Below, one piece after another: positions 21,165-39,734 of a DNA stretch of 64,000 nt (the stretch's first letter is position 1; the number at the start of each line of letters is the position of its first letter). Position numbers and translations under genes: made by a program. The DNA comes from Butyrivibrio proteoclasticus B316 (lineage in GTDB: Bacteria; Bacillota; Clostridia; Lachnospirales; Lachnospiraceae): assembly GCF_000145035.1 (NCBI RefSeq), contig NC_014387.1, positions 650,441 through 714,440 of the forward strand, read 5' to 3'. The notes below the pieces were generated by a model. It did not search any database. It had not been told where the DNA came from and was given only the letters and a program-made list of their open reading frames with translations.

Positions 21165-21329
21165 ATATCCAATCAAAAATGTGCAGTTCTCGGACGAGGC
21201 GATGATTTTCAAAACGAAAAAAGCAGCAAATGCCGATTTCTCTGAGCAACGTCGAAATGAGGCATTTGCTGCTTTATGAGTTTTAGAAAATCACAACGCA
21301 GACGAAAACAAGCATTTTTGATTGGATAT
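21165..21329 (+). repeat. structured intergenic element, copy A (candidate RNA)
   Basis: The sequence folds as a long rod. An outer stem pairs 21165-21181 with 21313-21329 (17 bp, perfect). A middle stem pairs 21204-21215 with 21279-21291 (12 bp, one bulge). An inner stem pairs 21221-21234 with 21261-21274 (14 bp, perfect). Three unpaired blocks are TGCAGTTCTCGGACGAGG (21182-21199), TGAGCAACGTCGAAA (21243-21257, terminal loop) and ACGCAGACGAAAACAA (21296-21311). The same blocks occur in copy B at 39576-39734, where all stems have different sequences but still pair. It fills the gap between convergent genes at 21154 and 21337. On the minus strand the inner stem is followed by six T and could also terminate the lipoprotein transcript. 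Confidence 0.85.
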
Positions 21330-21336
21330 TAAAAAC

Positions 21337-22578
21337 TTAACCGTTCTCCTGAGTTGATTCCTGCGAGGAACTATCTGGTAACTGAGGTGTATTCTCATTA
21401 GGCTTAACGAGCTTGTACTCTCCCTTTACCAGAAGTTCGAACTGATCAGGGAAAGCATCCATAAGAACTCCGTCATCAAGACGATAGAATTCATCTGGAT
21501 CAAAGGTTGCGATATTGATATAGTCAGATTCTCTGTAAGCCTTTGGCTCGTTGAATTCAAATCCGTTTGGCCAGTGGGCAACGATTCTTGCAAGAATGCG
21601 TCTGCCGGTTTCAGTCAGGTGGACATTATCCATCAGGTACTGATCAGCGGTATCAAGGTACAGGTCAAATCTTGACATGAACATTGCGTCAACGAGGAAG
21701 GCATTCTCTTCATCTGCTGAAACATTGCCGGCTTTCTTGGCATAATCCGAAAGTGTTCCAAAACCGTTACTGACAACATAAGAATCTCCAAGATAATTTC
21801 CGCTGTTGTCCTTGTAAATACCATATACAGGAGAAATCAGGAAAAACTTTGCGTTTGGACTTGACTGTCTAAGCTCTGAGATTCCAAGGCGAAGAGCGCC
21901 ATAATAGGTGTGAATGTCGTCATAGTTCTGGTCTGTGTTGAACTTATCAAGTGGAACTTTGGAAAAGAAATCGTTGGCACCATATTCTATAAAGTAATAA
22001 TCTACATCAGAAGGACTAACTGAATCCATTGCAGTCATAAGATCAGGATTACTGCTGAGGACATTCTCTTTTTTTACCTTGCCGGTAAAAGCGTGTACCA
22101 TTCCAACAAAGCAGTTAGATGACCAGTTCTCGTAATCTTCATAATCGGCTGTTGATGCTTCAAGAGAAGCAGTTGTTCCACCTATTGCAAGGTTGATAGC
22201 TACTGAATTGGGAACTCTTTGTTGTACAAGTGTAGGAATATCTGTTCCATCATTCCTACCATTAGCAATCTGGCTATCTCCAAAGAAAACCATAACAACT
22301 TTGTCTTCTTCCTGAGTTTCATCAACTGATGGTGCGGCTGATGCCTCGGCTGTAGCTGCTGCAGTTGTGTAATCTTCGAAATCAGGTGTTGCCAGATCAT
22401 CTGCAACAATTATATTTCCTGTGCTCTCAAGAGCGGAACTGTCATCTGTTGAATTAAGAGTTTCATCATTAATATATTCTGTGGCCTCTTTGGTGTCGTC
22501 CTGACCAAAAGAGCAGCCTGTAACTATAGTAGAAAAGGCTAAAATGGTGGCAGTTAACGTCAATATTTTTTTCTTCAT
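21337..22578 (-). CDS. SGNH/GDSL-family lipoprotein
   Basis: The 413-residue protein begins with a lipoprotein signal (MKKKILTLTATILAFSTIVTGC) whose lipobox cysteine is residue 22, so it should be anchored on the outer membrane face. A Thr/Ser/Ala-rich linker runs to about residue 90. The SGNH hydrolase fold follows: VMVFFGDSQIANGR (block I, nucleophile Ser), LAIGGTT (Gly), YGANDFF (Asn) and DNVHLTETG near residue 320 (catalytic Asp and His). Such enzymes add or remove acyl groups on glycans or peptidoglycan. It is divergent from the 22779 gene and convergent with the flippase. It could edit the acylation set by the MBOAT modules downstream. That link is inference. Confidence 0.85.
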   Translation of the reverse strand: MKKKILTLTATILAFSTIVTGCSFGQDDTKEATEYINDETLNSTDDSSALESTGNIIVADDLATPDFEDYTTAAATAEASAAPSVDETQEEDKVVMVFFGDSQIANGRNDGTDIPTLVQQRVPNSVAINLAIGGTTASLEASTADYEDYENWSSNCFVGMVHAFTGKVKKENVLSSNPDLMTAMDSVSPSDVDYYFIEYGANDFFSKVPLDKFNTDQNYDDIHTYYGALRLGISELRQSSPNAKFFLISPVYGIYKDNSGNYLGDSYVVSNGFGTLSDYAKKAGNVSADEENAFLVDAMFMSRFDLYLDTADQYLMDNVHLTETGRRILARIVAHWPNGFEFNEPKAYRESDYINIATFDPDEFYRLDDGVLMDAFPDQFELLVKGEYKLVKPNENTPQLPDSSSQESTQENG

Positions 22579-38752: not shown

Positions 38753-39208
38753 ATGAATAGTAAGAAAAAGAAAATAGGAATCGTGGATATCCTGCAGCTT
38801 CAGGGTGCAGTTATAGTGTATTCTCTTTCAACTGTTGCAGGAAAACTTGCATCGGATCATCCATTTTTATCATTTAAATATATTTTGTTTTTTGGCCTTG
38901 AGTTTGTGATCCTTGCTGTGTATGCCATCATATGGCAACAGATGATCAAGAAGTTTCAGTTATCAATTGCGTGTGCCAATAAAGCGCTGACTCTTTTGTG
39001 GTCTATGCTGTGGAATTTCATTATTTTCTCGACAGGTATTACTGTCTGGAAGGTCGTTGGAGTAGGCCTTGTTATCATTGGTGTTATCATCATGAATTCT
39101 GAGGCAGAAAGCGAGGATGCAGGTAATAAAAGCACAGTGATCGAGAATGCAGGCGCGGGTAATAGCACTGTGAATGAGATGATAGAGGAGGGGAAAGATA
39201 ATGATTAA
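38753..39208 (+). CDS. small EamA/ArnE-like transporter subunit
   Basis: ATG 38753 (MNSKKKKIGIVD) is preferred over the upstream GTG at 38741. The 151-residue protein has four hydrophobic segments and a hydrophilic tail rich in Glu, Asn and Gly. It starts with a small EamA-like pattern (GAVIVYSLSTVAGKLAS). Its stop overlaps the next gene, which encodes a 113-residue four-helix protein of the same kind. Paired half-size EamA/SMR proteins are known as ArnE and ArnF, which flip undecaprenyl-phosphate aminoarabinose. By analogy this pair may flip Und-P-sugars made by the GtrB/ArnC-like enzymes of the window. Confidence 0.65.
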   Translation: MNSKKKKIGIVDILQLQGAVIVYSLSTVAGKLASDHPFLSFKYILFFGLEFVILAVYAIIWQQMIKKFQLSIACANKALTLLWSMLWNFIIFSTGITVWKVVGVGLVIIGVIIMNSEAESEDAGNKSTVIENAGAGNSTVNEMIEEGKDND

Positions 39209-39542
39209 TATGTTTTTCTTTCTCATGATACTGGCTGAGCTTGTGGCGGCTTCTTCTCAGATGCTTCTCAAAAAAAGCGCAGGCAAAGAGTATCCCTCTT
39301 TTATCAGAGAGTATTTGAATGTACTGGTAATAAGCGGATATGGACTTCTTGTAGTATCAATGATCATCACTATTGTGTGCTATGGCGGCCTTGGCTATAT
39401 GGGGACAGTTGTCATGGAGCCCATCAACTATATTCTGGTTATGATCATGTCAAGGATCTTCTTTAAAGAGAAATTTACTACTAAGAAGATTATTGGAGTT
39501 TTGTTTATTATTGTTGGTATTGCAGTATTCTATATGCCATAA
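39201..39542 (+). CDS. small EamA/ArnF-like transporter subunit
   Basis: The 113-residue protein has four hydrophobic segments, with SSQMLLKKSAGKEYPS after the first helix. GYMGTVVMEPINYILVMIMSRIFFKEKFT follows, the typical SMR/EamA final pair of helices. GAGGAGGGG lies before the start, which overlaps the end of the 38753 gene by 8 bases. The two probably form a heterodimer. It is the last gene of the second plus-strand series. Structured element copy B begins 33 bases after the stop. Confidence 0.7.
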   Translation: MINMFFFLMILAELVAASSQMLLKKSAGKEYPSFIREYLNVLVISGYGLLVVSMIITIVCYGGLGYMGTVVMEPINYILVMIMSRIFFKEKFTTKKIIGVLFIIVGIAVFYMP

Positions 39543-39575: not shown

Positions 39576-39734
39576 TGCAGCCATAAATGTTTGTTTTCGT
39601 CTGCGTCGTAATTCAAAAAGATAATTATACATGACCCAGCTTTCTTTCGACGTTGCTCAAAACAATCAGCTGGTTCATGTATACTTATCTAATGAATTAT
39701 CTCCTCGTCCGAGAACTGCACATTTATGGCTGCA
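39576..39734 (-). repeat. structured intergenic element, copy B (candidate RNA)
   Basis: Read on the minus strand it has the same three blocks as copy A: TGCAGTTCTCGGACGAGG (39703-39720), TGAGCAACGTCGAAA (39645-39659) and ACGCAGACGAAAACAA (39591-39606), in the same order and position in the fold. The stems have other sequences. The outer stem is 39576-39589 with 39721-39734 (14 bp, perfect). The middle stem is 39609-39615 with 39693-39699 (7 bp). The inner stem is 39620-39641 with 39668-39689 (22 positions, one mismatch, one G-T). Stem sequence is thus replaced while pairing is kept. If read as plus-strand RNA it would be the 3' region of the ArnF-like transcript. Confidence 0.85.

Follow-up and report, generated by a model that had tools for sequence, protein, structure and literature searches.

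Two copies of a structured element lie on opposite strands of a stretch of the Butyrivibrio proteoclasticus B316 genome that is 64,000 nucleotides long and was analysed as a whole (hereafter the window). They share three blocks of 18, 15 and 16 identical bases (TGCAGTTCTCGGACGAGG, TGAGCAACGTCGAAA and ACGCAGACGAAAACAA), and the stems around these blocks differ in sequence and are nevertheless complementary within each copy. The initial annotation offered three guesses, namely a new small RNA family, an element of mRNA 3' untranslated regions, or a mobile element that is recognised as folded DNA.

Structure of the element and its spread in Butyrivibrio

Both copies are present where the initial annotation placed them, each with all three blocks, and their outer stems of 17 and 14 bp are perfect and of different sequence (Table 1). 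The inner stems also differ between the copies and are each self-complementary. The blocks had been described as all unpaired, which does not hold in the minimum-energy fold of the gene-sense strand, where the two facing blocks pair together (11 pairs in copy 1 and 10 in copy 2) and the apical block is the sole loop among the three in both copies. Compared with dinucleotide shuffles the folds have z scores of -10.7 (copy 1) and -10.1 (copy 2), and 0 of 200 shuffles folded as well. The statement that no Rfam class has this layout agrees with our searches: the whole 64-kb window gave no Rfam match at gathering scores, and a lax search of two 301-base stretches holding the two copies gave a best E of 0.035, far under the gathering score.

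Table 1. Parts of the two element copies in the window and the genes that they follow; a point marks a feature given without strand.
Feature	Positions	Strand	Basis
Element copy 1	21165..21329	- (gene-sense orientation)	covariance-model match (E 1.5e-33) and folding
Copy 1 outer arm, 17 nt (partner 21313-21329)	21165..21181	.	sequence and fold
Copy 1 conserved block 1, the 3' facing motif, sense CCTCGTCCGAGAACTGCA	21182..21199	-	copy comparison, alignments
Copy 1 inner stem, 3' arm in sense, running into TTTTTT	21220..21234	-	sequence, tail count, fold
Copy 1 apical-loop conserved block, sense TTTCGACGTTGCTCA	21243..21257	-	copy comparison, alignments
Copy 1 inner stem, 5' arm in sense	21261..21275	-	sequence and fold
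Copy 1 conserved block 2, the 5' facing motif, sense TTGTTTTCGTCTGCGT	21296..21311	-	copy comparison, alignments
Copy 1 second outer arm, 17 nt	21313..21329	.	sequence and fold
GDSL-type hydrolase gene; copy 1 follows its 3' end in sense	21337..22578	-	
Short EamA-like transporter half (below Pfam cut-off); copy 2 follows its 3' end in sense	39201..39542	+	
Element copy 2	39576..39734	+ (gene-sense orientation)	covariance-model match (E 2.4e-27) and folding
Copy 2 outer arm, 14 nt (partner 39721-39734)	39576..39589	.	sequence and fold
Copy 2 conserved block 2, the 5' facing motif	39591..39606	+	copy comparison, alignment
Copy 2 apical-loop conserved block	39645..39659	+	copy comparison, alignment
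Copy 2 conserved block 1, the 3' facing motif	39703..39720	+	copy comparison, alignment
Copy 2 second outer arm, 14 nt	39721..39734	.	sequence and fold

A covariance model was built from 27 copies, and its core comprises 147 model positions with 43 pairs. In the window's genome (4.40 Mb, four contigs), where the apical-loop pattern occurs exactly 7 times, the model has 21 matches at E<=0.001, one of which is the opposite strand of copy 1, leaving 20 places, three of them partial; the two copies first reported are thus real, and the scope of two was an understatement. The 186 kb contig C4 holds one copy, within an insertion sequence. Among 79 Butyrivibrio genomes 46 have model matches, and the number per genome runs from 0 to at least 39 (at least 39 in two genomes, 39 being also the limit of candidates scored in a genome), counts which may hold a few palindromes counted on both strands. 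The search of Lachnospiraceae with such a model, which had been proposed as a check, covered 397 genomes of 334 genera and found matches in Butyrivibrio only and none in the 333 other genera, under stricter filters and with the best 7 candidates per genome, so that weak relatives elsewhere could escape it. The exact pattern was found in 20 stretches of genome contigs, every one with a Butyrivibrio title, and had no match in viral contigs; a distant BLAST search with copy 1 only had no match in phages and plasmids. No earlier description of the element was found in the portions of the open-licence literature that were consulted, the B316 genome paper included. The best reading of these data is that the element is a family of small DNA elements multiplied within one genus, Butyrivibrio.

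On the sense strand the parts of the core follow one another as GAAATG-CTTGTGTTCGTCTGCG, middle stem, inner stem and TTTCGACGTTGCTCA, then the inner and the middle stem again, and CTCGTCCGAGAACTGCGCATTTC, over a length of about 150 nt, to which outer arms of variable length are added. These arms are locus-specific, differ from copy to copy and are long in some copies, as judged by eye (our estimate of arm length over-extends). An exact pattern containing CTCGTCCGAGAA and CGACGTTGCTC, which belong to two of the motifs, served to collect the first 27 copies, and the alignment of these 27 is invariant at those letters partly by construction. Conservation was re-measured on the 42 of the 69 copies in alignment A3 that are without one or both of the pattern words. 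Mean column identity in these was 0.91 and 0.90 in the facing motifs, 0.82 in the apical loop, 0.82 in the outer seven pairs and 0.70 in the middle and inner stems, which puts the facing motifs clearly above the inner stems in conservation. Variants of the apical loop are CGACGTTG, CAGCGCTG, CAACGTTG and CATGTTAT; in alignment A3 they are often self-complementary (as CAACGTTG and CAGCGCTG are), as if the loop paired with that of a second copy or were read by a dimer.

The claim that pairing is kept while the stems change is borne out by the 69 copies, in which both sides change in 38 of the 43 pairs. Two-sided cells number 597, compared with 162.7 in shuffles and at most 88 when the partners are slid, in a set of copies that are not phylogenetically independent and are in some cases orthologous. 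Farther out, part of the copies have a second facing pair, in which NACG (5' side) stands opposite CTGTY (3' side). Of the 69 copies, 26 have the expression DACGNC in the 5' flank (5.9 on average and 12 at most after shuffling) and 9 have SCTGTYT in the 3' flank (0.9 on average and 4 at most), both expressions having been picked after viewing the same sequences.

Several copies are rearranged. At loci L121 and L123 the 3' facing motif is split by a related stretch of about 100 bp (GTGGGAT..CACTAA..CTCG..TACTAGGCTCGA), which seems to be a further small repeat that entered the element. Downstream of the core at L117 and L119 the 3' facing motif and outer arm are tandemly duplicated, as replication slippage at a hairpin would leave them. 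Element pairs in opposite orientation occur at L137, L138, L139 and L140, where they are 95-161 bp apart, and at L133, where they flank a 152-codon gene. At L109, L111, L216, L217, L235, L237, L124 and L125 the same 3'-end position is taken by diverged relatives whose motifs are different (CTCACTTCTGG or CGCTTCTGG opposite TGCGAATGA, for instance), which suggests a wider superfamily that is only partly reached by the model (R1).

Position at gene ends and empty sites

The flanks of 70 copies were examined, consisting of the best matches per genome and chosen neighbours, some of them orthologous, and reading frames of at least 80 codons that do not overlap the core were taken as neighbour genes. 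Of the 69 copies that have a 5' neighbour, 63 share its strand (p 4e-13), in keeping with the 3'-end position that had been proposed, and the strand of the 3' neighbour is mixed (33 and 32 of 65). The stop codon of the 5' gene lies between 12 nt inside and 104 nt before the core in the 63 copies. The element stands directly after stop codons in one orientation, and a stop-to-stop frame of at least 200 codons overlaps the core by at least 100 nt in 0 of the 69 copies of alignment A3.

Where the inner hairpin ends, T accounts for 67% of 12 nt in sense and 51% on the other strand, and a run of at least five T is found within these 12 nt in 31 of 69 copies in sense and 25 of 69 in antisense. Copy 2 is without a T-run after its inner hairpin, and a terminator scanner called none in either window copy. 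A separate terminator ahead of every copy was considered and rejected, as a terminator-like hairpin was detected in front of 6 of 69 copies only (on the far side, 4 of 69); insertion after a terminator is accordingly seen only at the IS1182-like site described below. The 3' flanks of metK were compared in the 30 best-matching genomes. Without the element, a plain terminator was detected in 22 of 24 flanks, versus 1 of 6 in flanks with the element (G023 and G009) or a diverged form of it (G003, G065, G000 and G011; Fisher p 0.0008). The weakest forms, in G000 and G011, match the model at E 1.5e-3 and 2.6e-4, and the terminator hairpin in G065 lies, by eye, within the element's own arm. The element thus occupies the intrinsic-terminator slot at metK, a sign that the terminators of housekeeping genes may be open to takeover by mobile elements. 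In the metK flank of G075 (L233) a plain terminator is directly followed by a giant, near-perfect palindrome of another kind, which has GGGGACGGTTCTTTTGTCAC.

Sites of the element are empty in relatives. At the site of copy 1 a plain terminator stands in its place in G038, and in G011 there is neither terminator nor element. A more detailed case is an insertion sequence with a DDE transposase (PF13751), which we take to be IS1182-like. It is found in 17 of 79 genomes, fragments included, and the element model matches ten of its 30 loci. The upstream end was inspected at 18 loci, of which nine carry the element (four in G000, one in G007, two in G013 and two in G025), about 90 nt upstream of the transposase gene, and seven have the same end without it (two in G001, two in G002 and one each in G016, G018 and G022); a more distant insertion sequence in G053 (46% identity) is without the element and that of G066 could not be judged. 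The element is also found beside a transposase remnant in a fifth genome. Empty ends consist of a hairpin, a T-rich stretch (TTTTT in 5 of 7), 8-21 nt and then AACACAAAAACC or a close form, and filled ends of a hairpin, a T-rich stretch (TTTTT in 7 of 9), the element and a downstream sequence much like that of the empty ends. Since empty ends lack the outer arms, these came with the element, and for the IS1182-like site we therefore reject an origin in which the element entered the loop of a palindrome already present and its arms are target DNA. Sites that are empty in relatives, together with a copy number that varies between genomes, are what a mobile element is expected to show. The earlier argument against a decayed insertion sequence is valid for the element itself, although some copies are carried within an IS1182-like element.

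The window's genome has four near-identical IS1182-like copies, of which the 186 kb contig holds one; all four have a terminator-like hairpin at the transposase-proximal end. Positions 2175-3809 of L024 are a complete IS1182-like element, with near-identical copies at L025, L026 and L027.

Wobble pairs in the variable stems

Folded RNA tolerates G-U pairs on its own strand and does not tolerate A-C, which is G-U on the opposite strand. Departures from the commonest pair were counted in the variable helices of the 69 copies, the six facing-motif pairs being left out. There were 591 two-sided Watson-Crick, 22 one-sided G-T, 39 one-sided A-C and 34 other one-sided departures, a slight excess of A-C over G-T (p 0.04), and the 23 copies below 80% identity gave 225, 10, 12 and 10 in the same order. 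Butyrivibrio 6S RNA (28 unique of 30 sequences) gave 57, 134, 3 and 8; it is the one main RNA control, its non-redundant set leaves 3 sequences, and its low A-C count is favoured by the energy model behind its structure, which accepts G-U and not A-C (the same program gave the element structure). Ten plain terminator-like hairpins taken from 128 flanks had 11 G-T and 1 A-C. The six facing-motif pairs have G-T in 66 of 406 cells, 60 of these in one fixed U-G column, and with them included the totals become 88 G-T versus 45 A-C. The element forms a single long hairpin with almost exclusively Watson-Crick pairs in its variable stems and with conserved motifs, of which the two facing ones lie in a middle region of imperfect pairing.

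The symmetry between G-T and A-C is not explained by terminators that convergent genes share in both directions, since 29 copies between co-directional genes (9 G-T and 17 A-C of 1055 cells) behave like 23 between convergent genes (8 and 11 of 847), in a split that took the 52 of 69 copies with both neighbours known and the 5' gene on the same strand. Copies that are at least 97% identical differ mostly by one-sided changes (7 versus 1 two-sided), and below 80% identity two-sided changes number 25841 versus 4489 one-sided, summed over all copy pairs. Between copies that are 93-97% identical there are 16 two-sided changes, all single isolated pairs. The wholesale swapping of stems envisaged in the initial annotation finds no support in these single-base-pair differences, which together with the symmetric wobble counts indicate that stems change mostly pair by pair, with mismatches restored in a strand-blind manner.

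Pairing in the variable stems looks to be at the DNA level. Template switching is a known process that restores stem mismatches without regard to strand, according to the part of PMC8794818 that was consulted, and selection on folded DNA would leave a similar pattern. Compensatory change is usually read as proof of a functional RNA, and here very strong covariation is joined to variable stems with hardly any G-U or A-C, which points to DNA; wobble pairs counted on both strands offer a simple test of RNA versus DNA, and the element family a natural system in which to ask whether selection or template-switch repair keeps palindromes perfect. Of the three guesses, a mobile element recognised as folded DNA fits best, because copy number is patchy, sites are empty in relatives and the stems avoid G-T and A-C alike, and a plain new small RNA family is disfavoured by the wobble counts.

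Candidate mobilisers, explanations and known systems

Across the 79 genomes copy number was compared with the number of Y1 genes (rho 0.18), RVT_1 genes (rho 0.18) and IS1182-like transposases (rho 0.01), and all three were rejected as mobiliser, as none correlates with copy number; no other candidate enzyme was found. Among 19 genomes that are at least 95% complete and have at least 5 matches, Y1 is missing from 2, RVT_1 from 8 and the IS1182-like transposase from 14; genomes G069 (13 matches) and G027 (5 matches) have no Y1 gene. Inspected by eye, the clusters listed for 190 neighbouring frames include the IS1182-like transposase and ordinary genes, and no Y1 gene is among the recurrent ones listed.

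On balance we favour, by a little, the explanation that this is a non-coding, mobile palindromic DNA element of Butyrivibrio, comparable to REP and bcr repeats, which takes the place of terminators. The conserved motifs call for something that reads them. The symmetry of the pairing suggests that this reader acts on DNA, and gain and loss suggest that it is a recombinase. The motifs may be read on folded single-stranded or cruciform DNA by a putative trans-acting recombinase, which would insert the element at a terminator hairpin or behind one. Termination would then be supplied by the inner hairpin and its T-rich tail in place of the displaced terminator, so that the insertion would be tolerated and persist, and stem mismatches would be restored at the DNA level, whether through selection on folded DNA or through repair by template switching. 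Several genes keep the element or a diverged form of it in more than one species, a retention that fits slow vertical maintenance as well. Also against this explanation count the lack of correlation with the three candidate mobilisers, the scarcity of separate terminators in front of the copies, the G-T cells of the facing-motif pairs and, for termination, the scanner result and the lack of a T-run in copy 2. That the element represents a new class of transposable element, which would travel as folded single-stranded DNA recognised by a putative enzyme at several motifs inside the hairpin and not at its ends, insert at terminators in fixed orientation and substitute for them, with stems held complementary at the DNA level, is a tentative proposal that we rate as rather unlikely.

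Some of the same observations would be expected of a structured RNA at mRNA 3' ends, whether a 3'-UTR element, a stabiliser or a protein-regulated terminator, with sense-strand motifs that bind a protein. The sense orientation after stop codons, the terminator slot, the conserved motifs with strong covariation and the fixed G-U between the facing motifs all speak for such an RNA. We nevertheless think it unlikely, given that changes in the variable stems avoid G-U and A-C to the same degree, in contrast to 6S RNA, that plain terminator-like hairpins differ from them in this respect, and that copy number is as patchy as it is. Strand-symmetric pairing is also what the consulted part of PMC8794818 predicts for template switching, and the elements could be old palindromes, neutral or weakly useful, whose arms are homogenised during replication, with mobility rare and a reader unnecessary. 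The dominance of one-sided changes only between near-identical copies, which are then resolved, agrees with this. However, the facing motifs are about 90% conserved while the stems change, orientation is fixed, unselected homogenisation should erase the imperfect middle region, and two-sided changes between close copies are mostly single pairs and not blocks, all of which makes such an origin quite improbable.

Least probable of all, and very unlikely, is a MITE derived from the IS1182-like carrier and moved by its transposase. The nine loci in four genomes with the element upstream of the transposase gene, at the transposase-proximal end, and the remnant in a fifth genome are what such an origin would produce, and some standalone copies (a minority, by eye) adjoin GGCTGTC hairpins like the end of the insertion sequence. 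However, the seven insertion sequence copies without the element make it a passenger, the outer arms differ from copy to copy, and many genomes have the element without the insertion sequence, 14 of the 19 genomes above being without such a transposase at E<=1e-30.

Among known systems, group IIC introns insert in sense orientation beside intrinsic terminators. They are large ribozymes, usually with a reverse transcriptase, and differ from the Butyrivibrio element in that its copy number is not tracked by RVT_1 gene counts. The mobile palindrome that we favour is closer to REP sequences and BIMEs, which the text consulted describes as interspersed intergenic palindromes, mostly downstream of genes and patchy between species (PMC3733652), although it has no link to Y1 (RAYT) genes. 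CGTC-tagged REPs are 20-40 bp long, with a stem of 8-9 bp and an unpaired CGTC tag at its foot, and no dedicated transposase was found for them, as far as the consulted text goes (Di Nocera et al. 2013, PMC3733652); the main text of that paper has none of the words Firmicutes, Clostridi, Butyrivibrio and Lachnospir. Both Butyrivibrio facing motifs carry CGTC (TTCGTCTGCG and CTCGTCCGAG), which we regard as a lead only, as the core is far larger and its CGTC lies inside the hairpin and not at its end. The bcr1-bcr18 repeats of the Bacillus cereus group, on the part of PMC6542083 that was consulted, are interspersed repeats of 100-400 bp with mobile features, bcr1 averaging 39 per strain, and for them a mechanism like site-specific recombination with a TTTAT motif was suggested. 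They belong to another group, and the likeness to the Butyrivibrio element is one of description. As described in these sources, REP and bcr repeats share with it the character of interspersed palindromes near gene ends with no gene of their own, and the bcr repeats, which are restricted to one Firmicutes group and reach tens of copies, are the nearest to it in size and copy number.
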